From positions 1-22,930 of the IMG/VR virus record IMGVR_UViG_3300028592_000082: a stretch of DNA of 22,930 nt, one strand, 5' to 3'. The DNA comes from a virus. How positions within the stretch are numbered: the first letter of the stretch is position 1; every line of letters begins with the position of its first letter. The translations under genes were made by a program, and so were the position numbers. The notes under the pieces were generated by a model. The model had not been told where the DNA came from and searched no databases. It saw nothing but the letters and a program-made list of their open reading frames with translations. Below are positions 1-22,661 of this stretch, one piece after another.

Positions 1-682
1 AGTTGGCGGTGAACTTCACGTCGGCATCCATGTCTGACTTGTCCACGATCCAGGTCAGGTAGCCACGGTCGGTCTGGGCTACCTCCTTGAAGCTCTTGCC
101 GCGGTATTTGCCGAAGTTCATCCTCGGCAGGAAACCGGGCTCCTTGCTGATCTCGATCAGGCGCTCGACGGGACGAAGATCGAGGAGCTTCTGGAATATG
201 TGCGCCGTCACATAGGCGTCGGGCAGGGCGCGGTGCGGCGGCATAGCCAGAGCCGGGTCGAGATCGAGACCCAGCCAGTAACGTAGGGTCTGGTTGTTGT
301 GGCCCGGCGCTTCCGGCCATGCCCGATAGGCGCACTTCAGAGTGCAAATCCACGGCTGCGGCCGCTTTGAGTAGAAGTGCTGCTCGAAGGCGGCGTTATG
401 CGCGACATAGATGTCGTCTTCCGCCAGACCGCCGGCCAAGGTCTTCGTCATCTCGACGTGGCCCGGCGCATCCACGAAGTCAGCGGCCAAGAAGTGATGG
501 ACCGCCGATGTCTCAGGCGGAATCTCGCCCATGGGCTTGCGAAGGCCCTGCCGGGCGCTGCCATCGATGATGAAGCGTCCAGCCAGGTCGACGTCGACAA
601 AGCCATATTCGATGATTTCGGCGGCTTCGTTTTCGGGGAAACCCGTCGTTTCGAAATCCAATACGCGAGCAATGGTGGCCAT
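1..682 (-). CDS. DnaQ/ExoX-like 3'-5' exonuclease (partial, C-terminus off the window)
   Basis: About 227 residues are readable before the window edge. The N-terminus has the DEDDh exonuclease motifs: ExoI 'VLDFETTGF' (Asp and Glu metal ligands near residue 10), ExoII 'AHNAAFEQHF' (Glu where many members have Asp) and ExoIII 'HRALPDAYVTAHIF' (His and Asp). After residue ~195, 'MNFGKYRGKSFKEV' followed by 'YLTWIVDKSDMDADVK' resembles the DUF3820 module at the C-terminus of ExoX-like phage nucleases. The likely role is 3'-end resection or proofreading in phage recombination and repair. The ATG shares one base with the TAA of the recT-like gene, so it is translationally coupled and the last visible gene of the leftward operon. 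Family confident; exact substrate not known. Confidence 0.85.
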   Translation of the reverse strand, partial: MATIARVLDFETTGFPENEAAEIIEYGFVDVDLAGRFIIDGSARQGLRKPMGEIPPETSAVHHFLAADFVDAPGHVEMTKTLAGGLAEDDIYVAHNAAFEQHFYSKRPQPWICTLKCAYRAWPEAPGHNNQTLRYWLGLDLDPALAMPPHRALPDAYVTAHIFQKLLDLRPVERLIEISKEPGFLPRMNFGKYRGKSFKEVAQTDRGYLTWIVDKSDMDADVKFTAN

Positions 683-1704
683 TATGCGTCTCCATCGGTG
701 GGAAGGTCGCCAAGGAAGTCATCATCAGCCGGCGGAGCCTTGGATTTCACCACTACGCCAGAGGCGGTGACGATCTCGTCGTAGCTGGCGGCTATAATGC
801 TGTGGCCGCGCGGCTGTCCCTTCTTGCCGTGCAGATCGTCGGGGATGACGAGTGCTCCGGAAAGATTGGTGGAGAAGCCTTCGGGCAGTACTCCCATCTT
901 GAGGGCGGCAGCGGTCTCGTCTGCGCTGTTCCAGTCGACGAACGACGGGTCCAACGGCTCCTCTACGGTGACTGTAGACGGGACTTCCTCCAGCGCTTCA
1001 CCGTCTGCGCCCAATGGCTGTTCTTGGGCCTCCTGAGCCTCGCCGAGCGCCCCTTCAACGGACTGAGCGCTGAAGCCGCCGCCGTTGTTCTGCAGCCGAG
1101 CCGCCAGCCCAGTTCCTGCCGGCGGCGTCACGTCTTTGATCTGCTCCGCTTCGTCCCGATCATAGACGCCGAGAATGACTTCCGGGCAGTGACGACGGGC
1201 CCATGAGCGGGCGGCGAAATAGCCGAGCTGCTGCTTCGGGTCGGACTTCCAGAGCGGGGAGTTCTTGACTGTGATGCTGCCGATGGTCGGCGTCTCATAA
1301 ACGCATTCGGTGTCATCCAGGGTGCCGGTGACGCGGCACATAAGGGTGCTGCCCTCGCCCTCGTACTCATAGCGCAACCGGCCCTTGATGCCGGAACGGG
1401 TATTGACCACGGCGGCGATCAACTGCGCCTCATAGGCAATCGTGCCGCTCACGGAATAGGACTTCGATGCTACGGCAAATGGATTCATCTGCCAGTCGAG
1501 CGCCTGAAGCGCCACGGCCATGCAGGCGCCGGGATTGCCCCGCAAGTGCTTGGGAAGGGCGATGTCCGCCCGGCTCATGAGGTCGGCAAACTTGACCACC
1601 TCACCAAGGTTCTGCGGCGCAATGCGCGATCCGCTTCCTTCTCGCGCCATGCCGACCGAGGCCAGTGACGTGTTCTGCTGATTTTGGGGTGCCAACTGGT
1701 TCAC
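682..1704 (-). CDS. recT: RecT-family single-strand annealing protein
   Basis: 340 residues. Recognised from RecT-type segments: 'LPKHLRGNPGACMAVALQAL', 'MNPFAVASKSYSVSGTIAYE' with the following 'AQLIAAVVNTRSGIKGRLRY', and 'SPLWKSDPKQQLGYFAARSW' near residues 150-170. The C-terminal third is acidic and Pro/Glu-rich and looks like a flexible tail. RecT proteins anneal complementary single strands exposed by a partner exonuclease, which here is the gene immediately upstream. The start is GTG, overlapping the upstream TGA (GTGA), so the two are coupled. The RecE-like/RecT pair plus the exonuclease downstream forms a complete phage recombination cassette. The name is by family resemblance. Confidence 0.9.
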   Translation of the reverse strand: MNQLAPQNQQNTSLASVGMAREGSGSRIAPQNLGEVVKFADLMSRADIALPKHLRGNPGACMAVALQALDWQMNPFAVASKSYSVSGTIAYEAQLIAAVVNTRSGIKGRLRYEYEGEGSTLMCRVTGTLDDTECVYETPTIGSITVKNSPLWKSDPKQQLGYFAARSWARRHCPEVILGVYDRDEAEQIKDVTPPAGTGLAARLQNNGGGFSAQSVEGALGEAQEAQEQPLGADGEALEEVPSTVTVEEPLDPSFVDWNSADETAAALKMGVLPEGFSTNLSGALVIPDDLHGKKGQPRGHSIIAASYDEIVTASGVVVKSKAPPADDDFLGDLPTDGDA

Positions 1705-2678
1705 TGCGCAAACTCCGCTTCAAGGGTGTCGAGGTGTCGGTCGAGGGCTTCGCGACCATAGGAGGGAAGGGAAAGGCGCTGGGCATCGGCCTGACGGGCC
1801 GTTGGCCCCGGCCATACACCGGTCGCGAGGCAGCGTTCGAAGATGGACAGGGCGGCCATGGTGGCGCGTTCGCCCAGCACGATATCGGCGTCGTCCAGCG
1901 TCTTGATCGCGACGGAATGGACATTCGTTGTGTCCACAAAGACCAGGTGGAAGCCCTCCATGTCCCGGCCCAGCACTCGCTTGGCGGCCATGCCGATGAC
2001 GGCGCCCTGAACGTGGTAGCCGTGATCGAGGACCGTGTTGGCGAGGCTGTGATCGGTGACGCCGGACACGCCGCGGGGTGATACCGTCTTTAGGTCCGCG
2101 AAGTCGTTGCTGTCACCCGGAATGGCGTCGGGACGAGCCTTCACCCAGACGTCGCCAACCTTGAAGATCAGCGAGCGTTCGATCTCGCCCGACAGCACGC
2201 CGCCTTGGGCGACGAGCGGGGTATTGGCGAGACCGCAGTTCGTCATGCCCTTCTGCCACGGCAGTAAGCCTGCCATGCCCTTGATCTTCTCGATCTGGGC
2301 AGGCGTCAGGACGGTGCGCCCAGCATCAGCCTGCACCTTCAGCCACTCGATGCAGGACTTGTTGTTGCCGTTCCAGACGCGCCCGTCCGGCGCTTCTTCA
2401 GGGCGCAAGATGAAGTGCTTGCCGAAGTCGCGCTCGCCCAGCAGCAAGTGGTGAGCGGCGCGGCCCAGGATAAACGCTTCCTTGTCGTCTTCTTCGACGC
2501 GGTGCGGGTTAAGCGATGACGTGCGCCAGTACTCAGCCGGGCTCCGTAGCAGCGCGCGGATGCCGCTCGAGCTGATCGACGGTCCGTCGCAGCATTGCTG
2601 GTGATACCACTCGATAGGCGTGTCATAGACGCCAGGCTCAGTGATAATCTCGCCGGGTTCGACAGTGACGACCATCAT
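1701..2678 (-). CDS. RecE-like PD-(D/E)XK exonuclease (DUF3799 type)
   Basis: 325 residues. The N-terminal half has the 'ISSSGIRALLRSPAEYW' and 'AFILGRAAHHLLLGE' segments typical of phage RecE-like/DUF3799 nucleases. The catalytic core is readable as 'VWVKARPDAI' (Asp184) followed by 'FADLKTV' (Asp195, Lys197), then 'HGYHVQGAVIGMA' with the expected Q-motif. This should be the 5'-3' double-strand exonuclease that makes the tails used by RecT. The ATG at 2678 overlaps the previous gene's TGA (ATGA); a second ATG follows directly, so the exact start is uncertain by one codon. The usual genomic partner (recT) lies directly downstream. Confidence 0.85.
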   Translation of the reverse strand: MMVVTVEPGEIITEPGVYDTPIEWYHQQCCDGPSISSSGIRALLRSPAEYWRTSSLNPHRVEEDDKEAFILGRAAHHLLLGERDFGKHFILRPEEAPDGRVWNGNNKSCIEWLKVQADAGRTVLTPAQIEKIKGMAGLLPWQKGMTNCGLANTPLVAQGGVLSGEIERSLIFKVGDVWVKARPDAIPGDSNDFADLKTVSPRGVSGVTDHSLANTVLDHGYHVQGAVIGMAAKRVLGRDMEGFHLVFVDTTNVHSVAIKTLDDADIVLGERATMAALSIFERCLATGVWPGPTARQADAQRLSLPSYGREALDRHLDTLEAEFAQ

Positions 2679-3022
2679 TCCGCAGCCCTCATCACTTCGA
2701 CATCGACGCCCTCGACAGCCGCCATCGCGACATCGTCGGTCGGCTCTTCGATGGGATCGGCGAAATAGCCCAGAGCGTTCGACACGTCGGCCAGACGGCT
2801 CGCCGCATCGGCAAGGATGGGCGCTGGGTCGCCTCCCGACATCTGGGCGCCCTTGGCATAGGCAAGGGTCTCATGGAGCTTCCGGGAACAATCCAGGGCG
2901 AGCTGCAAATCCTTCATGGCGGGGTCCTTCATGGTGATGCGCTCAGCGCCGCAGACGAGGGCGGTGAAGCTCTTGATGGGGTTGAAGGGGGATTGGCCGA
3001 TGGCTTGGGCGATGCGGGTCAT
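2675..3022 (-). CDS. Small phage protein of unknown function
   Basis: 115 residues, mostly helical in appearance ('LALDCSRKLHETLAYAKGAQ', 'DAASRLADVSNALGYF') with an acidic C-terminal tail. No catalytic motif, membrane segment or signal peptide is seen. It starts with an ATGA overlap on the upstream gene and ends with an ATGA overlap on the RecE-like gene. It therefore belongs to the recombination operon and may be an accessory or host-modulating factor, but no function can be assigned. Confidence 0.75.
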   Translation of the reverse strand: MTRIAQAIGQSPFNPIKSFTALVCGAERITMKDPAMKDLQLALDCSRKLHETLAYAKGAQMSGGDPAPILADAASRLADVSNALGYFADPIEEPTDDVAMAAVEGVDVEVMRAAE

Positions 3023-3274: not shown

Positions 3275-3694
3275 TCACTCCGCTGCCATAGCCGGCACGC
3301 CATCGAGCGCATCGGCAATATTCCGAAGCTGGCCGGGAATGACGCCGAGCGCTTCCATGGCCTCGCCGAACCGAGCGAGGTCGGCGCGGATCTTGGCTTC
3401 CCATTCATCGTCGGACACATCGCCCTCGGGGCGCATGAACGGAGGAATGCCCTGACCAGCGAACTCGATCTTCTCGCCAGCATCGACGTGGAAGATCACC
3501 TCCTCGTCGCCGGTCCATTCAACGCTGCCATCGCTTTCAATGAAGCGGGCCGTGACAGCGTAGTGGCCGTCATGATCGTAGTCACAGGACACAACCTCGG
3601 CAGCGCCGCCGAAGGGGCCGAAATCTCCGCCCTTGCGCCAGATGGAAACTCCCGACGCAAGACGTTCGATGCTGATGAAGGTGGGCAGAGACAT
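3275..3694 (-). CDS. Unknown protein, first gene of the leftward (PL) operon
   Basis: 139 residues beginning 'MSLPTFISIERLASG'. An in-frame ATG four codons upstream (3706) has no ribosome site, whereas GGAG lies six bases before the ATG at 3694, so the inner start is chosen. The first half is rich in Gly, Asp and beta-prone residues ('GGDFGPFGG', 'SCDYDHDGHYAVTARF', 'EEVIFHVDAG'); the second half is helical. It is the first gene after the operator-controlled promoter at 3757-3785, with a leader of roughly 55 bases. It should therefore be made immediately on induction or infection, the slot where phages often place host-takeover or anti-defence proteins. No family recognised. Confidence 0.75.
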   Translation of the reverse strand: MSLPTFISIERLASGVSIWRKGGDFGPFGGAAEVVSCDYDHDGHYAVTARFIESDGSVEWTGDEEVIFHVDAGEKIEFAGQGIPPFMRPEGDVSDDEWEAKIRADLARFGEAMEALGVIPGQLRNIADALDGVPAMAAE

Positions 3695-3756
3695 GGATGG
3701 CTCCATCGGTTCTGAGCAGATCGGCCAAGTGGCTTCTTCGTGCTGCTGATGGAGCG

Positions 3757-3785
3757 AACGTAATGCGGATCAAAATCCGCGTCAA
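3757..3785 (-). promoter_or_regulatory. Leftward early promoter (PL-like)
   Basis: On the minus strand TTGACG (3785-3780) is followed by a 17-base spacer and TACGTT (3762-3757), a good -35 with a partial -10. The spacer is filled by one operator palindrome (3765-3780), so repressor binding would block RNA polymerase directly. The first coding start downstream is 3694. Confidence 0.65.
3765..3780. promoter_or_regulatory. Repressor operator, site in PL
   Basis: GCGGATCAAAATCCGC: 6-bp inverted arms (GCGGAT/ATCCGC) around a 4-base centre, inside the PL spacer. It is closely related to the sites at 3793-3808 and 5921-5936. The obvious binder is the S24 repressor encoded between the two operator regions; this is inferred from the layout. 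Confidence 0.75.
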
Positions 3786-3792
3786 CAGAAAA

Positions 3793-3808
3793 GCGGAATG
3801 AAATCCGC
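3793..3808. promoter_or_regulatory. Repressor operator, site upstream of PL
   Basis: GCGGAATGAAATCCGC lies just upstream of the PL -35 element. Its 16 bases are identical to the operator in the rightward promoter at 5921-5936, about 2.1 kb away. Two sites 28 bp apart (start to start) suggest cooperative repressor binding. Confidence 0.75.
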
Positions 3809-3892
3809 ACAATGTTCTTGACGAACCTTTCCTGCGCGCGCATACACGCGGTTATGGAGTAAGATGTCGTGGTTGAGGGGATATCACGGCAA

Positions 3893-4037
3893 GAACCGAA
3901 GCATCGGTTCTATCGGCCCGGACAGCGAGGCAGCCGCGCCTAGCGGCGCTGCCTCAGGTTCAGCGGTTCAATCACACCGAACTATCCAGGCACTGGATGT
4001 ATCAATAGGGCAATACGCGCGAGGCCTTGCAGGCCTC
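3893..4037. terminator. Cluster of three hairpins between the immunity operon and PL
   Basis: Three inverted repeats lie in the gap between the end of the immunity operon (4043) and PL. They are GAGGCC-5-GGCCTC (4021-4037), GAGGCAGC...GCTGCCTC (3927-3934 with 3948-3955) and GAACCGA-4-TCGGTTC (3893-3910). The first begins six bases past the stop of the 85-aa gene. None has a clear T-run, so termination is inferred from position and strong GC stems. No gene is seen in the 3850-4042 gap. Confidence 0.45.
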
Positions 4038-4042
4038 CCGGC

Positions 4043-4300
4043 CTATTCCATATCCGGCACATCGCCTTCCTGAAACAGGATCACCGGATCCCCAAATTCG
4101 CCATTGGTGAGATCGGCAGAGCGCCACCAGGCTATCGCGCCGACATATTTGCCCGACGACCAGAGAATGCGCGCCTGCTGCTTCGCTGCAGATTCGGACT
4201 GCGCCTCGCGGGCCTCGAAAGCGGGCTGCAGCTCGCCTTCCTCGTCGCGAACGAAAGCCAGATAGACGATGAGCTTGGTGGGCTTCGGTTGCTCGCTCAT
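4043..4300 (-). CDS. 85-aa phage protein of unknown function, last gene of the immunity operon
   Basis: 85 residues starting 'MSEQPKPTKLIVYLAFVRDE' and ending 'PVILFQEGDVPDME'. The pattern (PKPTKL...LAFxRDEEGEL...A...E..A...AR.L......GVIAW.R.AD...GE.G.P..LF..G..PD.E) is one I associate with a widespread small protein of rhizobial phages with no assigned function. There is no membrane segment. It overlaps the XRE gene's TGA (ATGA), so it should be expressed in the lysogen together with the repressor. Confidence 0.75.
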   Translation of the reverse strand: MSEQPKPTKLIVYLAFVRDEEGELQPAFEAREAQSESAAKQQARILWSSGKYVGAIAWWRSADLTNGEFGDPVILFQEGDVPDME

Positions 4301-4749
4301 TCGGGCCTCAGGTGTTTCTCGATCAGTTCTCGGGCCATATCCATAACCCGGCCAAGGCCCGGCGTGGCATCTGCCGGCGCCTGTTGCTGTTCCAGCAGGA
4401 GGAGGGCGGTTTCGTATAGCTCAACCGTCTCCTCGCCCGTCAGGAGGTCCTTGTCGTGCAGGGTTTGCACCAGGGCAGCGAGAATCGCGGAGCTGGACAG
4501 CGTGACGGCGGCGATGGTTTCCGCCGGCCCATCGTCATCCTCTTCGACGTAGGGACCGATCAGCAGCCAGACCGGGTCACATCCGAAGATCTGGGCATAA
4601 TGCTGGGCCTGCTCTGTGGTGAAAGCGTTCTGCCCGTTCTCGTGTGCCCGGTAGGATGACTCTGAGATGCCCGCGGCCGCAGCCGCTTTCGAGGCCGACT
4701 TGAAGCCAGCCATTAGCCGCGCCTGTCGAAGGCGGTCACCGGGTGTCAT
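4297..4749 (-). CDS. XRE-family transcriptional regulator
   Basis: 150 residues. Residues ~1-62 form an XRE helix-turn-helix: 'PGDRLRQARLMAGFKSASKA', then 'AAAAGISESSYRAHENGQNA' and 'AQHYAQIFGCDPVWLLIG'. The rest is a helical acidic tail (residues 65-150) that may be for oligomerisation; there is no S24 peptidase domain. It sits third in the operon headed by the S24 repressor, with ATGA overlaps on both sides, so it is a second regulator made in lysogeny. It might tune the repressor's own promoter, PR, or a cargo promoter; its target cannot be read from sequence. Confidence 0.85.
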   Translation of the reverse strand: MTPGDRLRQARLMAGFKSASKAAAAAGISESSYRAHENGQNAFTTEQAQHYAQIFGCDPVWLLIGPYVEEDDDGPAETIAAVTLSSSAILAALVQTLHDKDLLTGEETVELYETALLLLEQQQAPADATPGLGRVMDMARELIEKHLRPE

Positions 4750-5090
4750 TGAGAGCCGGGAAGCGGAATGCCGGCCGGCGCCTCTCGCTCATCAACCACG
4801 AGACGGATGGAAACGGGTCCAGCCTCAGAGCCTACATAGGGGGAGCAAGAGATTACCGCCCGATAAGCACCCCGCGCCAAGTCGTAGCCCAGCTCGTTGT
4901 CCGGCGAATAACCGGTGATCTCTGCCTTCGAGACGCTGCCGTCGGTTGCCAGGACGATGTCGATCTGGACCTCAGCGCCGATGCCCATTTGCGACGGCAT
5001 GACGTTCCAGCACTTCTGCACGTCGCTCGGCTCCAGGGCCATTGCAGGTCCGGAGAGCGCGCATAGCGACACGAAAATCAAACGCTTCAT
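4746..5090 (-). CDS. Periplasmic TolA C-terminal-domain-like protein
   Basis: 114 residues. 'MKRLIFVSLCALSGPAMA' is a short Sec signal with a probable cut after AMA (residue 18) and no lipobox. The mature part reads like the TolA domain III/TonB C-terminal fold. It has 'VQKCWNVMP' (Cys27), the strand pattern 'VQIDIVLATDGSVSKAEITG', helix 'DLARGAYRAVISCSPY' (Cys82) and 'GPVSIRLVV'. The paired CW...CxPY cysteines are the TolA hallmark and probably form a disulfide. The membrane anchor and long helical domain of a true TolA are absent, so this is a free domain. It lies between the repressor and the XRE gene with ATGA overlaps, so it should be produced in the lysogen. Superinfection or bacteriocin exclusion is an inference. 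Confidence 0.75.
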   Translation of the reverse strand: MKRLIFVSLCALSGPAMALEPSDVQKCWNVMPSQMGIGAEVQIDIVLATDGSVSKAEITGYSPDNELGYDLARGAYRAVISCSPYVGSEAGPVSIRLVVDEREAPAGIPLPGSQ

Positions 5091-5863
5091 CGTCCAGGCC
5101 TTCTCCGGAGATTGGCGTAGGCAGTCAGCACCACGCCGATGATTTTGACTTCTTCGCCGTCACCATTCACCGAGTGGTCATGTTGGACGACAATAGGGGT
5201 GTGATCCCGATTGCTGCTGACGGGGCGTAGCTCATACCGGTCCCGGAAGAAATGCACTTCCTTGACGGTCAGTTCTCGCTCGGAGCCCTGGTAACGAACC
5301 CGCTCGACGATCACGAGATCCCCGGTGACGATGTCGCCATAGGTGTCGATGTAGTCAGCTGCATCGGCGCCAACCACCCACATGCCGTCGAGGATGCCCG
5401 CCTCGTCCATCGAGTCGCCCAGCGACCGCCAGACGTATTGGCGGACCCGGTTGTACTGGGGGACCATCAGCACGTAGTCGGGCACTTCGTCGGGGTCTTG
5501 ATTGAAATACTCGTCGACGGCCAGGAACTTTCCCGCCTGCACGTTGCCGGCATAAGGGGGCTTTGCGCCTTCATGGAGCACGCCAGGGCCCTCCAGATGG
5601 CCATCGCCATCCGGCAGTTCCTCGGGGCCCACTTCATCGGTCAGCCAGGAGGCTGTTGTTTGCAGCACCTTTGCCAAGGCACGGATCGTGTCCATGCGCG
5701 GGCTAAACGGCTCGTGCTTCTTGGCCTTGTCGTAGATTTTTCTAATGGCGTCGCGCTTGCCCTCGCCCATCGCTTTTTCGGACGCGGCCGAGGGCGAAAG
5801 CTTAAGCTTTTCAAGGCGCCGCTCGATGCGGCCTGCAAGGGTGTGAGGATCAAATTCCGACAT
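5087..5863 (-). CDS. S24-family (LexA/CI-type) phage repressor
   Basis: 258 residues starting 'MSEFDPHTLAGRIERRLEKL'. The open frame extends to 6046, but that part would run through PR and its operator, so the ATG at 5863 is chosen although its ribosome site is weak. Residues ~8-75 form an XRE-like DNA-binding domain ending 'LAKVLQTTASWLTDE'. 'GNVQAGKFLAVDEY' contains the Ala110-Gly111 self-cleavage site. The peptidase domain carries Ser151 ('SLGDSMDE') and Lys201 ('LTVKEVHF'). The enzyme therefore looks intact, and RecA-stimulated self-cleavage is expected to induce the phage. First gene of a four-gene leftward operon set between two operator regions, as with lambda cI. Confidence 0.92.
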   Translation of the reverse strand: MSEFDPHTLAGRIERRLEKLKLSPSAASEKAMGEGKRDAIRKIYDKAKKHEPFSPRMDTIRALAKVLQTTASWLTDEVGPEELPDGDGHLEGPGVLHEGAKPPYAGNVQAGKFLAVDEYFNQDPDEVPDYVLMVPQYNRVRQYVWRSLGDSMDEAGILDGMWVVGADAADYIDTYGDIVTGDLVIVERVRYQGSERELTVKEVHFFRDRYELRPVSSNRDHTPIVVQHDHSVNGDGEEVKIIGVVLTAYANLRRRPGR

Positions 5864-5912
5864 GCCGCACCGTAACCCGTCCGCGCATTCCGCAAAATCG
5901 GATAGAAAGCCG

Positions 5913-5942
5913 TTGACAATGCGGAATGAAATCCGCATGAAT
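5913..5942 (+). promoter_or_regulatory. Rightward early promoter (PR-like)
   Basis: TTGACA (5913-5918) is a perfect -35. The best -10 is a weak ATGAAT (5937-5942) at 18 bases, or CATGAA at 17. The operator palindrome fills the spacer, the same arrangement as in PL. The first coding start downstream is 5992. A 5-bp hairpin (5959-5972) lies in the leader. The repressor's own leftward promoter must lie in the same 5864-5960 stretch but no convincing elements were found. Confidence 0.65.
5921..5936. promoter_or_regulatory. Repressor operator in PR
   Basis: GCGGAATGAAATCCGC, extended to a 20-bp dyad ATGCGGA-6-TCCGCAT (5919-5938). It is identical over 16 bases to the operator at 3793-3808. It lies between the -35 and -10 of PR and just upstream of the repressor start, so it can both block PR and feed back on repressor expression. 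Confidence 0.8.
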
Positions 5943-5991
5943 AGTGGCAACGGACGAATTCGATTTGTCGAACTAGCGGGATAACCCAGGA

Positions 5992-6246
5992 ATGCTGCCA
6001 CTGACCGAGCAACTGTCCATCGTCGCCCAGGCTTACGCCAAAGCAACTGGCACGTCGTTGGCCACGGTCAGCACGAAGCTCTTCAACGGGGGCGGTCGCC
6101 TGACGGCCATTATCGGCGGCGGCGATCTCAACACCCGGAATTTCGAGAAGGCTATGGGTTGGTTTTCGGACAATTGGCCGGAAGCACTCGAATGGCCTTC
6201 GCATGTGCCTCGACCGGCACCGTCTGAACTGGCCGCAGCCAGCTAA
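5992..6246 (+). CDS. Small protein in the Cro position
   Basis: 84 residues ('MLPLTEQLSIVAQAYAKATG', then 'SLATVSTKLFNGGGRLTAII'). It is the first gene under PR and opposite the repressor, the slot usually held by Cro. The stretch 'AYAKATGTSLATVSTKLF' has the helix-turn-helix-like spacing of a small DNA-binding protein, but I cannot confirm the fold. AGGA abuts the ATG with no spacing, an unusual ribosome site. It is followed by a 78-base gap (6247-6324) with nothing recognisable. Cro-like function is inferred from position only. Confidence 0.7.
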   Translation: MLPLTEQLSIVAQAYAKATGTSLATVSTKLFNGGGRLTAIIGGGDLNTRNFEKAMGWFSDNWPEALEWPSHVPRPAPSELAAAS

Positions 6247-6324
6247 CCACCGATTTCAACATCACCAAGCCTCCGAGCGCATGGAGCGCCGACGGCCTGT
6301 CTATGCACCACAGGATGATCTGAA

Positions 6325-6657
6325 GTGTCAGAAAAGATCGAAGCCAGCGCAGAACTTCAGGTCGTTCGTACAGAGCGCGGGTTTGCCAGTGCCGAATTCA
6401 CCGACCTCTACGGTGTAAAGTGCTCGGTCCAGAAGTCGTCGCTTGCCACCGAAGAAGCTATCTGGATTGGCGCGAACGAAATCGGCCTGAAGCACTTCAA
6501 GACTTTTGAAGGCTGGTTGGATGTTCCGACGCCTCACAGCGTCGATGAACACTGGAGCGCCAACACCCGCATGCACCTGTCCCGCGAACAGGTCGCGGCG
6601 CTTCTGCCGATGCTTACTCGATTTGTCGAGACGGGCGAGATCGAGGCGCGGTCATGA
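6325..6657 (+). CDS. Conserved phage protein of unknown function
   Basis: 110 residues beginning with GTG, with AGGA nine bases before it. It reads 'GFASAEFTDLYGVKCSVQKS', 'IWIGANEIGL' and 'NTRMHLSREQVAALLPMLTR' with 'FVETGEI'. I recognise this as a very common small phage protein, usually annotated hypothetical and found in early regions. It looks like a compact alpha/beta fold with no catalytic motif. The TGA overlaps the next ATG (ATGA). Confidence 0.8.
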   Translation: MSEKIEASAELQVVRTERGFASAEFTDLYGVKCSVQKSSLATEEAIWIGANEIGLKHFKTFEGWLDVPTPHSVDEHWSANTRMHLSREQVAALLPMLTRFVETGEIEARS

Positions 6658-6953
6658 ACCCGCGCGCCGAACTCCGCGACCGGCTGACGCGCATCGCCGC
6701 CGCTACCGTTCCCCATCTCAAGGTTCCGGGCCGCATCCAGTATTTGGCCCGTCGCATCAGCGACGAGTCCGGCCTCGCTGTCGGGGCAGGGACGGTCAAA
6801 GACTGGCTCTACGCGCTCGACAGTGACGATCGCCGCGTCGACAGCCGCCACATGGACTGGGCGCGTAGCCGCGACCGGGTTCTCGGCGTCGCCAACGACA
6901 ACCGGGTGATGCGACCAGGTAACGCCGAAGCCGTGATCGGGTGGGCGGCATGA
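6654..6953 (+). CDS. Small basic phage protein, possible DNA-binding
   Basis: 99 residues. 'IQYLARRISDESGLAVGAGT' followed by 'VKDWLYALDSDDRRVDSRHM' reads like a helix-turn-helix (GLAVGAGTVKDWLYA as turn and recognition helix) in an Arg-rich protein. No other domain. ATGA overlaps at both ends tie it to its neighbours. Function unassigned. Confidence 0.7.
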   Translation: MNPRAELRDRLTRIAAATVPHLKVPGRIQYLARRISDESGLAVGAGTVKDWLYALDSDDRRVDSRHMDWARSRDRVLGVANDNRVMRPGNAEAVIGWAA

Positions 6954-13310: not shown

Positions 13311-13381
13311 TTTGACCTCTCCGTGTCGCTGTCAGTTTTGATGGCGCACGTTGGCTCATTTGGCAATTGGCGGATCTCTCG

Positions 13382-15679
13382 ATGATCGGCCGTTTCCCCG
13401 AATCCTTCCTCGACGAGCTGCGCGCCGCGGTGCCGATCTCTCAGGTCGTTGGCCAGTTCGTCCAATGGGACAGTGGCAAGTCCAACCCAGGCCGGCATGA
13501 CATGTGGGCTTGCTGCCCCTTCCATGCCGAGAACTCGCCCAGCTTCCACGCTCAGGACAGCGAGCAACTGTACCATTGCTTCGGTTGTGGCGCCTCCGGC
13601 GACCACTTCAAGTTCCTCATGGAGCATCGCGGCGCGTCGTTTCCAGAGGCCGTGGCGTTCGTTGCCGAGATGGCTGGCATCGACCTGCCGGAAGGCAATG
13701 GAAGCAGCAAGCCATCCCGACCACCAGAACAGCCACGGCAGACCAAAATGGCCCCACAGCCCTCCGCTGGCGAAATCCGGCCAGAGATCGTCAAGACCTA
13801 TGACTACACCGACCGCGACGGCGCGCTGCTTTATCAGGTCTGCCGGCTCCAGAAGAAGCTGCCAGACGGCACCTGGGCCAAGAACAAGGATGGCAAGGGG
13901 ACGTGGAAGACCTTCTTCCAGCGCCGACCGGATGGGGCAGGGAAGTGGATATGGAGCCTGTCGGCTGGCGAGTTCATGCGGAAGCCCGGCGGCGACTGGC
14001 GGGTCTATGACGGCAAGAAGTTCGAAGAGGGCATGGAGACGCGGTTATTCGATGCCGGCGCCGAGCACACCATCTACCGCCATCCCGAAATCGAGATCGC
14101 CATCGCCGAGGGCAGGACGATCCTGATCACCGAAGGCGAGAAGGATGCCGAGACGGCCGTCGTCCTCGGATTCTGCGGCACCACGAATAGCAGCGGCTCG
14201 AAACACTGGAAGGATTACCACTCGGCATGCTTCCGCGGTGCCGATGTCTTGATCTGCCTCGACAATGACGCTGCCGGCGACCGGGCTGATGAACTGGCCA
14301 AGTCGATGCGAGGCATCGCCCGGCGAATCCGAGTGCTGGATTTCGCAAAGGTGGTCGATGGCTTCCCTGAGAAAAAGGACATCACGGACTGGGTCGAGGA
14401 GTTCGGCGGCACCGCCGACCAACTCGTGCAGATTTTGCACCAGTTGCCAGACTATCGGCCGCGCCCTCCGGCATCCCGCTTCAACGCCCTAGCCGTCAAA
14501 GATGCCATTCGCTTCGCCGCCAACCACGATTGGCTGGTCGAAGACCTGATCGAAGCGCGTGGCACCTTCGCTTTCGCCGGTAATAGCCAGTCGGGCAAGA
14601 CATTCCAGGTTATCGAGCTCGCCTTCTGTGTTGCCACTGGCCGCAAATACTGGGGCAGGGACGTGAAGCAGGGGCTCGTCGTCTACCAAGTCGGCGAGGG
14701 CGAGGAGGGCTTTATGAAGCGCCTTGCCGGCTACTTCAAAGACCGCGGCATCGATGACATGTCCGACCTTCCCATCGTCGTGCTGCCGAAAAAGATCAAC
14801 CTCTTCACGGGCGACGATGACACCACCAACCTGATCGCGGAAGCCAAGGTGTGGGAGGAATACTACGGCATCCCGCTCCGCATGATCGTCATCGATACCT
14901 ACAACAAGGCCACGCGCGGCTCGAACGAGATCAGCGGGCAGGACGTCGGCAAGATCAATGACCGCCTTGAGCGCATCCAGAGCGAGTGCAAGTGCGCCGT
15001 TGGCGTGGTGGACCATCTCAGCGCGGGCGGCCGGGTGCGCGGCCATGGATCCAAGACCGGCGACATCACCAACATGATCATTGTTGAGAAGGACGAGAAG
15101 AAGGTGGACCGCAACGGCCGCGCGCTGCGCCGCATGCGCCTCGACAAGAACAAGGATGGTGAGAACGGCGGCACCATTGAATTTGTGCTGCGCCAGGTCG
15201 TGGTCGATTTCAACGCCGCCGGCAAGGCGATCACGACGTGCGTGGTCGAAGCCCCCCATGGCAGCGAGGAGGAGCTGGAGAAATCCGGGCGCCTGCCGCT
15301 GAACCAGTCGATCATCCTGCAGACCATTCGCGACGTCATTGCCCGTGATGGTTTCCCAGCACCACCAGACATGCCGGAGGAAGTCCGGCGCCCAGTAGTG
15401 GCATGGAAAACAGTGATGACCGAGTTGCGTAGGAAGTGGCTCTACAAAGCGCCTGAGAACGAGCCGGAGGCGCGCGAGCACGAACTACAGCGCATCGTCA
15501 CCGATGCCGGCAGGAAGCTCCAGAACCACGGCTACATCGATCGCGACAATACCAAGGGCATCGTGTGGTGGACCGGCAAGACTGATCGCCCCATCCCGAA
15601 GCCAAAGCCAGCCGAACCGGCCCCGACCGTCTCGCCAGCCCTCGCAAAGGAATTTGCAGAATCGGACGTGCCATTTTGA
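13382..15679 (+). CDS. Phage primase-helicase (CHC2 zinc finger + Toprim + RecA-like ATPase)
   Basis: 765 residues. The N-terminal zinc-binding domain has Cys45, His48, Cys66 and Cys69 in 'CCPFHAENSPSFH' and 'YHCFGCGASGDHFKFL'. The Toprim domain shows 'ILITEGEKDAETAVVLGF' (~250) and 'LICLDNDAAGDRADE' (~292). The RecA/RepA-like ATPase has Walker A 'GNSQSGKT' (~400) and Walker B 'RMIVIDTYNKA' (~500). It should prime and unwind DNA at the phage replication fork. ATG 13382 is preferred over TTG 13367 because it restores the ATGA junction with the gene at 12426 when the cargo insert is removed mentally. The C-terminal ~120 residues look like a winged-helix or linker region. Confidence 0.9.
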   Translation: MIGRFPESFLDELRAAVPISQVVGQFVQWDSGKSNPGRHDMWACCPFHAENSPSFHAQDSEQLYHCFGCGASGDHFKFLMEHRGASFPEAVAFVAEMAGIDLPEGNGSSKPSRPPEQPRQTKMAPQPSAGEIRPEIVKTYDYTDRDGALLYQVCRLQKKLPDGTWAKNKDGKGTWKTFFQRRPDGAGKWIWSLSAGEFMRKPGGDWRVYDGKKFEEGMETRLFDAGAEHTIYRHPEIEIAIAEGRTILITEGEKDAETAVVLGFCGTTNSSGSKHWKDYHSACFRGADVLICLDNDAAGDRADELAKSMRGIARRIRVLDFAKVVDGFPEKKDITDWVEEFGGTADQLVQILHQLPDYRPRPPASRFNALAVKDAIRFAANHDWLVEDLIEARGTFAFAGNSQSGKTFQVIELAFCVATGRKYWGRDVKQGLVVYQVGEGEEGFMKRLAGYFKDRGIDDMSDLPIVVLPKKINLFTGDDDTTNLIAEAKVWEEYYGIPLRMIVIDTYNKATRGSNEISGQDVGKINDRLERIQSECKCAVGVVDHLSAGGRVRGHGSKTGDITNMIIVEKDEKKVDRNGRALRRMRLDKNKDGENGGTIEFVLRQVVVDFNAAGKAITTCVVEAPHGSEEELEKSGRLPLNQSIILQTIRDVIARDGFPAPPDMPEEVRRPVVAWKTVMTELRRKWLYKAPENEPEAREHELQRIVTDAGRKLQNHGYIDRDNTKGIVWWTGKTDRPIPKPKPAEPAPTVSPALAKEFAESDVPF

Positions 15680-19391: not shown

Positions 19392-19754
19392 ATGGTAGCG
19401 ACTAAGCGCGGAGGTCGTCGGGAAGGCGCAGGGCGACCCACAGGCAGGCGAAACACCGCCACCCGTAGCCAAGGCGCATCCCTGAGCGAGCTGGCGCGCA
19501 AGCACACCGCTGACGCCCTATCAGTGCTGGTGTCCGTGGCCAAGAAGAGCGAGAGCGACAGCGCTCGGGTGGCGGCCGCCAATGCCATCCTCGACCGAGG
19601 ATACGGCAAGCCGCGCCAGGCGGTCGAGCACTCTGGCTCCATCGGCACCTACGACCTTACCAAATTGGATGACGATGCACTCGACAAGCTCGAATCCATC
19701 CTCGGTCCGCTTGCCCACGATGGCGGAGATCAGGGCGGAGAGGAATCGACGTAA
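19392..19754 (+). CDS. Terminase small-subunit-like protein
   Basis: 120 residues from the ATG at 19392; the frame is open to 19350. The start 'KRGGRREGAGRPTGRRNTAT' is the basic low-complexity head of small-terminase-like proteins of alphaproteobacterial phages. 'LARKHTADALSVLVSVAKKS' and 'SARVAAANAILDRGYGKPRQ' are the conserved helical core. It probably binds phage DNA and guides the large subunit. It overlaps the large terminase gene by 35 bases. The ribosome site is weak (GGA nine bases upstream). Confidence 0.78.
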   Translation: MVATKRGGRREGAGRPTGRRNTATRSQGASLSELARKHTADALSVLVSVAKKSESDSARVAAANAILDRGYGKPRQAVEHSGSIGTYDLTKLDDDALDKLESILGPLAHDGGDQGGEEST

Positions 19755-21246
19755 GGCCGAGCGCGAGAAGGAGCGCATTGCGCGAGACGGCGAGGCGATC
19801 CGGGCTTGCTGTCAGACGCTGGAAGGCTTCATCAAAGAGCACTGGCATGTGTTGGAGCCGGTTCGCCCGCTGAAGTTCGGCTGGGCCTTGCGGGCTATGT
19901 GCCGGCATCTGGAGTCGGTCTCTGCGGGCGATATCCAGTTCCTGCTGATGACCGTGCCGCCCGGCATGATGAAGTCGCTGGTGCTGGTCTTCTGGACGGC
20001 ATGGGAGTGGGGGCCGTATGGCCGCCCTGACCTGCAAACGCTCGCGACCTCATACAGCCAGCTCAACGTGCTGCGCGACAATCTCAAGCTGCGGCGCCTC
20101 ATCGAGAGTGACCAGTTCCAGGCCCTATGGCCGCTGAAGCTGCGAGGCGATCAGAACGCCAAGGGAAAGTTCGAAAATACCGGCAACGGCTTCAGTGAGG
20201 CCCGCCCGTTCGGATCAATGACCGGTGGCCGCGGCGACCGGGTGAAGGTTGACGACCCTCATTCTACTGAGACCGCCGAAAGCGATGCAGAGCGCGCCAC
20301 CACGGTGCGCATCTTCCGCGAGGGCGTCACCGACCGGCTGAACGATCTTACCTCCTCGGCCATGGTGATCATCATGCAGCGCCTGCACTCGCAGGACGTT
20401 GCTGCCGTGGCCATGGAACTGGACCTGGGTTTCGTCCATCTCAATCTCCCCATGGAGTTCGAGGCGGAGCGTGTGGATGCCAATGGGAAGCGATCCGGCG
20501 GCCCCTGCCGTACCTATGTGAAGGGCGAACTGTTCTTCGAGGATCCGCGCACTACCGATGGTGAACTCCTGTTCCCCGAGCGCTTCCCCCGCGCAGAGGT
20601 GGACAGGGTCAAGCGGGCCAAGGGCGAATATGCATATGCCGGCCAATACCAACAGCGGCCATCGCCGCGTGATGGCGGCCTGTTCAAGCGCCAGTGGTTC
20701 GCTGACAAGATCAGGCGCATGGCCCCTGAAGGCACGCGCTGGGTGAGGCATTGGGACTTGGCCGCAACCAAGAGCGCAACGGCCGCCAGAACGGCCGGCG
20801 TGAAGCTGGGCAGGGCTCCTGACGGCACTTTCTGGGTCGGCCATGTAGTTAAGACCCAAGATGAAGGCAACGCGGTCAAGGTGCTCATCAAAGCCACGGC
20901 CGAGATTGACGGCAAGTCCGTCGAGGTCAGCCTGCCGCAAGACCCCGGCCAGGCTGGCAAGGTCCAGAAGTCGGACATGATCTCGATGCTGGCTGGCTGG
21001 AATGCCCATGCTGAACCAGAAACAGGGGACAAGGTCACCCGTGCCGAACCTTTCTCCGCCCAGTGCGAGGCAGGGAATGTCTTTGTCGTCGAGGGGGACT
21101 GGAACTCGGACTATATCGACGAACTCTGCCTGTTCCCGGGGGGCAAGTTCAAGGATCAGGTCGACGCCTCATCTGGGGCGTTCGGCCGACTGGTGACCGC
21201 CGAAATACCAGGGCGCGCCGTTGTGGTTGAGACAGGATTTTATTGA
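19720..21246 (+). CDS. terL: Terminase large subunit (ATPase/nuclease)
   Basis: 508 residues from the ATG at 19720; the open frame runs back to 19582 but that part shadows the small-subunit gene. The ATPase has a deviant P-loop 'LLMTVPPGMMKSLVLVF' (Lys85, Ser86, as in the 'PPGxMKS' terminases), 'GGRGDRVKVDDPHS' as Walker B (~175-180) and 'MVIIMQRLHSQD' as the coupling motif. The RNase H-like nuclease begins at 'WVRHWDLAATKS' (Asp346). It pumps DNA into the prohead and cuts it. All key residues are visible except a classical GKS triplet, which is normal for this subfamily. Confidence 0.93.
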   Translation: MAEIRAERNRRKAEREKERIARDGEAIRACCQTLEGFIKEHWHVLEPVRPLKFGWALRAMCRHLESVSAGDIQFLLMTVPPGMMKSLVLVFWTAWEWGPYGRPDLQTLATSYSQLNVLRDNLKLRRLIESDQFQALWPLKLRGDQNAKGKFENTGNGFSEARPFGSMTGGRGDRVKVDDPHSTETAESDAERATTVRIFREGVTDRLNDLTSSAMVIIMQRLHSQDVAAVAMELDLGFVHLNLPMEFEAERVDANGKRSGGPCRTYVKGELFFEDPRTTDGELLFPERFPRAEVDRVKRAKGEYAYAGQYQQRPSPRDGGLFKRQWFADKIRRMAPEGTRWVRHWDLAATKSATAARTAGVKLGRAPDGTFWVGHVVKTQDEGNAVKVLIKATAEIDGKSVEVSLPQDPGQAGKVQKSDMISMLAGWNAHAEPETGDKVTRAEPFSAQCEAGNVFVVEGDWNSDYIDELCLFPGGKFKDQVDASSGAFGRLVTAEIPGRAVVVETGFY

Positions 21247-22661
21247 TGACCTTCGATCCAACCGCGACCCACCCAATGTACAACGCCTTCGCGCCATCTT
21301 GGCGGCTCATGCGCGACTGCATGGCCGGCGAAGACGAAGTGAAGTCCAAGGGCGAACTGTATCTCCCCATGAAGTCGGGGACGCGGGCCATCAGCGACGT
21401 GGCACTTCGGGCGGCCGCCTATGATGCCTACAAACTCCGGGCCGAGTTTCCCGAACTGGTAGCCCCAACCGTGCGCGGTGCCGTTGGCACGATGCTCGAC
21501 CAGGCGCCCGTGATCGAGCTACCGGCTGGGCTGGAAGGCCTTCGGGAACGGGCAACGCGTGACGGGCTATCACTTGAGGCCCTGCACCGTCGCATCGCCA
21601 CCGAACTGATGCTGGTTGGTCGCTATGGGGTGCTGCCGGGCATATCGCAGAATGGCAGCCCGTATCTCGCGGGCTATGTCACCGAAGCCATCACCAATTG
21701 GGACACTGACGCCGAGCAGCGCCCTGATTGGCTGATGCTCAATGAGAGCGGCCTGTCGCTCGACCGCGCCACCGGCAAATGGGAGGCGCTCGATCAATAC
21801 CGGGAATGCTTCGTGCGTGACGGGCGCTACGGCGCGCGGGAATGGGTGAAGACGTCTGGCGGCTGGACCGCGACTGAAGTTGTCGAGGCGGCGACCCGCA
21901 AGCGCACGCCGTTGGAGGAACTGCCCTTCGTCTTCATCGACACCAACGACCTGACACCTGATCCGGACGACGTGCCGCTCTATGGCCTCGGCAAGCTGGC
22001 CGTGCGCGTCTATCGCCTCGATTCCGACTATACCTTCGCTCTGCACATGACGAGCGAGCCGACGCCTTGGGCGAACGGGTTTGCTGATCCCGCCGAGGCA
22101 GTGAAGAACGGGCAAGCCCCGACGACGCTCGGATCGTCCAAGCTCTGGCTGCTGCCCGAGGGGGCGCAGGCGGGATATCTGGAATTCACCGGCCCGGGCC
22201 TTGAGGCTCAGAACAAGGCCATCACCAATAGCCTCGACCGTGCCGTCATCTTTGGCGCCAACCTGCTGGCCGATACCGGCAAGACGGCAGAAAGCGGCGA
22301 GGCCATCAAGCTCCGCCTGGGCAACCAGACCTCGACGCTCAAGACCATCGCCATGACCTCGGCGGCGGGGCTGGAGCGGGCTTTGCGAAATCTGGCGACG
22401 TGGATGGGCGAAGACCCGGAAAAGGTCGTGGTGACGCCCAATCTTGATTTCTTCGACCACACCCTCAGCCCGCAGGAAATCACCGCCATTGTCGGCGGTT
22501 GGCAGGCCGGCGCCTATAGCCGCAAAACCATGTTTGAACGGTTCAAGAAGGGCGAACTTATCCCGACTGAACGGACCTTTGAGGACGAACAGGATCTGAT
22601 CGACACGGAACCTCCGACAGGCCTGATTCCGCCGGCAGACACAACCGATGACGACGAATGA
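21246..22661 (+). CDS. Portal protein (DUF4055 type)
   Basis: 471 residues. The ATG at 21246 overlaps the terminase TGA by one base; a TTG three bases earlier is possible. 'MYNAFAPSWRLMRDCMAGED', 'YLPMKSGTRAISDVALRAAA' with 'YDAYKLRAEF', and the later 'LEFTGPGLEAQNKAI' and 'LGNQTSTLKTIAMTSAAGLE' match the DUF4055 portal family. It follows terL as expected. The protein forms the dodecameric ring at the capsid vertex. The C-terminus is Pro/Asp-rich and flexible. Confidence 0.9.
   Translation: MTFDPTATHPMYNAFAPSWRLMRDCMAGEDEVKSKGELYLPMKSGTRAISDVALRAAAYDAYKLRAEFPELVAPTVRGAVGTMLDQAPVIELPAGLEGLRERATRDGLSLEALHRRIATELMLVGRYGVLPGISQNGSPYLAGYVTEAITNWDTDAEQRPDWLMLNESGLSLDRATGKWEALDQYRECFVRDGRYGAREWVKTSGGWTATEVVEAATRKRTPLEELPFVFIDTNDLTPDPDDVPLYGLGKLAVRVYRLDSDYTFALHMTSEPTPWANGFADPAEAVKNGQAPTTLGSSKLWLLPEGAQAGYLEFTGPGLEAQNKAITNSLDRAVIFGANLLADTGKTAESGEAIKLRLGNQTSTLKTIAMTSAAGLERALRNLATWMGEDPEKVVVTPNLDFFDHTLSPQEITAIVGGWQAGAYSRKTMFERFKKGELIPTERTFEDEQDLIDTEPPTGLIPPADTTDDDE

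Follow-up and report, generated by a model that had tools for sequence, protein, structure and literature searches.

The C-terminal domain of TolA (domain III) is a docking site for several proteins: the N-terminus of TolB and the filamentous phage protein g3p bind the same edge by strand addition, and colicin A binds the opposite one (PMC7391070). At the β3 site of the domain, TolB has competitors in colicin N and g3p (PMC4339652), and in E. coli a signal sequence fused to TolAIII leads to release of periplasmic protein and destabilisation of the outer membrane (PMC6195910). In phage lambda the immunity region is laid out as OL - rexB - rexA - cI - OR, and in the lysogen rex and cI are transcribed together (PMC11077077).

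The DNA analysed here (the window) is a virus record of 22,930 bases from IMG/VR, with phage genes throughout (Table 1). The phage came from soil. Its portal protein is 86% identical to one in G119, a genome of the Devosiaceae (Hyphomicrobiales), the family to which Pelagibacterium luteolum belongs, and on this ground a Devosia-like host in the same family is probable. One gene of its repressor operon encodes a signal peptide followed by a stand-alone TolA C-terminal domain (TolA-C). Prophage exclusion proteins of the cell envelope are known, but none known to us consists of a host import domain in free form, and none turned up in the literature searched.

Table 1. Positions of features in the window and in the related phage and host loci
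Locus	Feature	Position	Strand	Remarks
Window	RecT gene	682-1704		
Window	First gene of leftward early operon	3275-3706	-	Beyond distal operators
Window	Third operator-like palindrome, variant GCGGATCAAAATCCGC	3765-3780		
Window	Operator-like palindrome GCGGAATGAAATCCGC	3793-3808		16 bases, identical to that at 5921; operon far end, before next leftward early gene
Window	Small conserved gene	4043-4300	-	Last in operon; 87% identical in L002
Window	XRE-type regulator	4297-4749	-	C-terminal domain (AAVTLSSSAILAALVQSLHDK) tags immunity cassette in related phages
Window	TolA-C gene	4746-5090	-	114 aa, ATG start; signal peptide residues 1-18, domain about residues 20-102
Window	S24 (LexA/CI type) repressor	5087-5863	-	258 aa; overlaps TolA-C start by ATGA
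Window	Operator-like palindrome GCGGAATGAAATCCGC	5921-5936		Between repressor and divergent early gene
Window	First rightward early gene, divergent (phrog_7669, Cro position)	5992-6246	+	89% identical in L002
Window	Primase/helicase gene	13367-15679		
Window	Large terminase gene	19582-21246		
Window	Portal gene	21243-22661		
L056	S24-position repressor	5291-4629		Too diverged for Pfam match
L056	Exported TolA-C	4632-4222		136 aa
L056	XRE	4225-3779		
L056	Another exported protein	3782-3462		Followed by early genes with RecT-like protein
L052	Host tol-pal free TolA-C	1911-2333		
L053	Host tol-pal free TolA-C	1802-2185		
L054	Host tol-pal free TolA-C	1631-2056		
L109	Host tol-pal free TolA-C	5215-5616		
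L110	Host tol-pal free TolA-C	4948-5472		
L111	Host tol-pal free TolA-C	4987-5388		
L113	Host tol-pal free TolA-C	2270-2884		

Identity and conservation of the phage TolA-C protein

The original prediction, made from the sequence alone, took the open reading frame at 4746-5090 to encode a free, exported TolA-C-like domain without an anchor; the N-terminus and the profile comparison given below both bear this out. The protein opens with a predicted Sec signal peptide (MKRLIFVSLCALSGPAMA/LEP), called from sequence and hydropathy with the cut site read by eye, and this is retained in the close phage L002. Neither the membrane anchor (domain I) nor the linker is present, so the architecture is not that of a full TolA. 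A lipoprotein signal was considered and dropped, since Leu precedes Cys10 and there is no lipobox.

Taken singly, the sequence gives weak library matches, to Pfam TonB_C (14.7 bits) and to the NCBIfam models tonB_Cterm (16.1) and tolA_full (10.2), all under the curated cut-off, and a single-sequence search of the PDB was too weak to use. A profile of two rows (A1), combining the window protein with its 87% identical relative in L002, matched 106 of 136 Devosiaceae genomes (E <= 0.1; best E about 5e-10). Nearly all of these matches are open frames of about 340-490 aa, identified as TolA where read, and tolR or tolB adjoins the matches read where the locus shows neighbours; TonB, the other candidate, was dropped on the same grounds. 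When compared by hhalign with the C-termini of 20 host TolA proteins, residues 22-86 were matched with a probability of 98.6% (E 6e-16), and the host TolA profile itself matches the solved domain III of P. aeruginosa TolA (6S3W, 1LR0; E about 6e-5). The cysteine pair remarked on in the original prediction proved to be conserved: C27 and C82, together with P84 and Y85 of the CxPY motif, are invariant in 11 rows covering phage, stand-alone and host proteins. In the diverged prophage L056 the first cysteine is one place off, beside a tryptophan. We therefore regard homology of the window protein to the alphaproteobacterial TolA C-terminal domain (domain III) as firm at the level of sequence comparison.

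AlphaFold with the two-sequence input returned two models that disagree, with a pLDDT of 48.9 for the whole protein and 59.2 for the mature part, and nothing significant was found by Foldseek with these low-confidence models. The PADLOC models gave no match to the protein at E 0.1. Among IMG/VR, GTDB genomes, plasmids and phage records, its close relatives were limited to the L002 protein and one cellular TolA from a phage-labelled record. L007 (MT837095.1 6098-13251), labelled bacteriophage, contains tolQ, tolR and tolA in one locus and is probably of cellular origin.

Between the window and L002 the gene differs at 38 bases, 25 of them third positions; 23 of the differences are synonymous and 15 non-synonymous, against a null mean of 10.95 synonymous (P = 1e-4). 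The dN/dS of 0.19 compares with 0.05-0.09 in three neighbours for the same pair. Judged by these substitutions the gene is under purifying selection, yet it is the fastest gene in the operon; the possibility of a chance ORF was dropped on the synonymous excess and the dN/dS. Synonymous divergence for this pair is 0.48 in the repressor and 0.32 in TolA-C, compared with 0.91 in the XRE gene and 1.39 in the small gene, and the lower values could reflect a recent exchange of repressor and TolA-C as a unit.

The repressor operon and its operators

The minus-strand operon runs from the S24 repressor through TolA-C and the XRE gene to the small gene, with overlaps of a few bases from gene to gene. 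The ATGA overlap that had been proposed to place TolA-C in the repressor operon is seen in GACGATGAAG, the repressor stop and TolA-C start, and is followed by CTCAATGACACC at the TolA-C stop and XRE start; both are kept in L002, and their L056 equivalents are GAGATGATG and ACAATGACC. In the repressor, the A110-G111 cleavage site, S151 and K201 are invariant over 7 relatives. Homologues of the small gene adjoin the XRE C-terminal part (XRE-C) in L072 and L065. The XRE C-terminal domain retains 70-79% identity even in L003, L004, L005 and L006, where the HTH part is missing, which argues for a function of its own.

Operator-like palindromes flank the operon. The exact GCGGAATGAAATCCGC occurs twice in the window, at 5921 and 3793, and the variant beside the distal copy is also found in L002 at 7083, one of two operators there (7055 and 7083) that face a single one at 3814. 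The palindrome of L056 is another one, TTTGCGANNATCGCAAA-like, and its copies are placed in the same way: a single one adjoining the repressor (5358) and a pair at the distal end (3186, 3221). Beyond the distal operators of the window, the leftward early operon continues to a PDDEXK-like DUF3799 gene and recT. TolA-C thus occupies the position that rexAB has in lambda, on the same strand as the repressor, overlapping it and lying between two operator sets. We infer that the repressor binds these palindromes and that the TolA-C operon is active in the lysogen; with matching operator sets on both sides of it, the case for such expression is stronger than the ATGA overlap by itself would allow. 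A sigma-70 scan of positions 3600-6150 found no consensus promoter. The same layout with a second operator family is seen in two other repressor operons (L015 606-1540; L017 4918-6125), which have two CGGGAAATTTCCCG-type palindromes on each side.

Recurrence, the variable slot and host counterparts

The order of repressor, TolA-C and XRE gene recurs in L002 and in L056, a diverged prophage in the Devosiaceae chromosome G027, in keeping with the predicted link to immunity regions. Since the L056 protein is only about 27% identical to that of the window, the link does not merely reflect recent descent. Phages with TolA-C are rare, being limited to the window, L002, L056 and one prophage with a copy in its tail module, and no TolA-C gene lies in the immunity region of G119, the nearest structural relative found.

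We surveyed 11 lineages with an XRE-C gene, found by means of the XRE C-terminal part. The slot beside or between the repressor and XRE-C is occupied in 7 of them, in all seven cases by genes for exported, lipoprotein or membrane products, a count that is small, was made after the pattern had been noticed and includes three loci (L004, L074 and L076) with no repressor visible directly upstream. The occupants are TolA-C (window/L002; L056), exported proteins of 176 aa (L003) and 117 aa (L004), two membrane proteins (L005), a bPH2 membrane protein (L074) and a lipoprotein (L076); the other four lineages (L006, L065, L072 and L073) have no gene in this position. A small membrane-protein gene in L015 lies outside the operators and was left out of the count. 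L014 and L016, which have an S24 repressor and no XRE-C, carry other downstream genes in which no export signal is obvious, and we therefore claim an envelope bias for XRE-C cassettes only.

Known or candidate defence families are found in the same cassettes. In L003, ShosT and ShosA (5295-5861 and 5848-6606; PADLOC E 2e-18 and 7e-68) directly follow the XRE-C gene; the inter-operator cassette of L002 includes a minus-strand gene (5711-6838), absent from the window, that matches PDC-S33 and has a RelA/SpoT domain (E 5.5e-85); and the L065 cassette has a match to PDC-M41A (E 1e-75). Genes similar to the ShosT/ShosA pair of L003 also occur in L074. Given the operon setting, the variable slot in relatives and these defence-family neighbours, TolA-C counts, by genomic context, as lysogen cargo within the repressor operon, a setting with more support than the first reading could give it.

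Free exported TolA-C proteins are also encoded by the bacteria themselves. In tol-pal operons of Hyphomicrobiales they adjoin tolA or sit between tolA and tolB (Table 1), and orphan copies occur near tRNA-Lys (L108) and as a tandem pair (L112); no description of the tol-pal proteins was found in the literature. Because of these host proteins, the arrangement of signal peptide and TolA-C is not unique to the phage. Of the original prediction, in which a soluble TolA-C decoy could give the lysogen exclusion or altered envelope behaviour, the domain, the operon setting, the cysteines and the immunity link stand; the domain arrangement is one that host operons share. The host tol-pal proteins presumably do ordinary envelope work and are a likely source of the phage gene. 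In a tree of 70 TolA-C domains, L056 groups with the orphan L108 (99/93), the phage copies have very long branches and stay apart from the tol-operon copies, and the window copy, with long branches and few columns, takes no resolved position; the tree suggests more than one origin, a point on which the long branches leave us unsure. A free exported TolA-C is also present in a prophage or GTA-like tail module (L055 3987-4358, the same as L114 8987-9358), where it is flanked by a tail protein gene and, just after it, by the tape measure gene.

A possible decoy role and its alternatives

A prophage with this gene would make free periplasmic TolA domain III while its other phage genes are silent. 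Lacking the membrane anchor, the free tip would transmit no force, but its β-strand edges would be open to the same docking partners as those of host TolA. It could thus compete with the membrane-bound protein for two kinds of partner, the N-terminus of TolB and the phage or bacteriocin proteins that use TolA as a dock on their way in, and Tol-dependent entry into the lysogen would fall. We put the chance that the free domain acts as such a dominant-negative decoy, giving superinfection or bacteriocin exclusion, only slightly below even, and favour it because of the TolA precedents together with the slot and cassette context. In its favour are the TolA identity, selection on the protein, the place in a repressor operon between operators (window, L002 and L056), the order and start-stop overlaps shared by two diverged phages, and the variable envelope-protein slot with defence-family cargo in the same cassettes. 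Against it we count the rarity of TolA-C phages and the lack of the gene in G119, the dN/dS above that of the neighbours, the host tol-pal copies and the low-confidence fold models; nor do we know of any Tol-dependent phage or bacteriocin for Devosiaceae. The wider proposal is of natural exclusion by molecular mimicry, in which a lysogen-made TolA tip soaks up TolB and Tol-dependent phage and bacteriocin proteins and TolA-C is one of the interchangeable envelope proteins that occupy a slot in the immunity regions of Hyphomicrobiales phages; we advance it tentatively, as somewhat more doubtful than not.

The free domain might instead titrate TolB so as to tune Tol-Pal in the lysogen (vesicles, permeability) or to aid phage release at induction, with any block to import a side effect. 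The effect of artificial TolAIII export on the E. coli outer membrane (PMC6195910) would fit such envelope modulation, as would the host free proteins that adjoin tolA and tolB and the tail-module copy of L055, for which late expression is expected; the window gene, however, is in the repressor operon, apart from lysis and late genes, defence families are among the contents of the neighbouring slot and cassettes, and a leaky lysogen would bear a cost, so that we consider modulation unlikely, though worth keeping in view. Those same host copies, recurring in tol-pal operons of several Hyphomicrobiales lineages and as orphans in L108 and L112, raise the question of whether the phage simply carries a captured host protein that keeps its non-antagonistic job (for example stabilising TolB or Pal). 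The clustering of L056 with L108 speaks for a passenger of this type, but the very long phage branches apart from tol-operon copies, and a slot shared with unrelated envelope proteins, make it distinctly improbable. The long branch, the curated models that miss the protein and the disagreement of the AlphaFold models could also point away from TolA altogether, to a drifted domain (for example a partner of a non-Tol envelope protein of phage or host) or to a gene that mainly keeps repressor and XRE translationally coupled; set against the profile homology to TolA (E 6e-16), the invariant cysteines and CxPY and the purifying selection, a role of this sort seems very improbable.

Exclusion by a TolA decoy is, by analogy, a hypothesis with good precedent. 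If it is true, phages use the trick that engineers found by exporting TolAIII, and the importance of Tol-dependent entry in alphaproteobacteria becomes testable. The interchangeable slot beside phage repressors is a place to seek envelope-acting defence genes, and the host free TolA-C proteins in tol-pal operons call for a function in their own right.

Compared with TolA of the Tol-Pal system, the phage protein has a homologous domain III with the cysteine pair, CxPY and a predicted periplasmic location; it differs in being encoded by a phage, in lacking the domain I helix and domain II linker, in having its own signal peptide and in a shorter loop before the last strand. The free TolA-C proteins of Hyphomicrobiales tol-pal operons likewise combine a signal peptide with TolA-C, have no anchor and keep both cysteines, but are chromosomal and lie by tolA, and their loop following CxPY is longer and contains a W/Y motif. 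The engineered signal-sequence-TolAIII fusion (rbp-tolAIII) is also a signal peptide with TolA domain III alone, though artificial, overexpressed and derived from E. coli, whereas the phage gene is natural and in a repressor operon. As probable lysogen-expressed envelope cargo, TolA-C would be of a kind of gene already known. Lambda rexAB is likewise beside the repressor, in its operon and between operator regions, and hence expected to be expressed in the lysogen; RexA is a DNA-binding protein and RexB an inner-membrane protein, and neither has a sequence relation to TolA-C. SieA of P22 is, like the proposed decoy, a prophage-expressed envelope protein proposed to stop entry, but it sits in the inner membrane and blocks the passage of DNA, whereas the phage TolA-C would mimic, in soluble form, a host protein used for entry.
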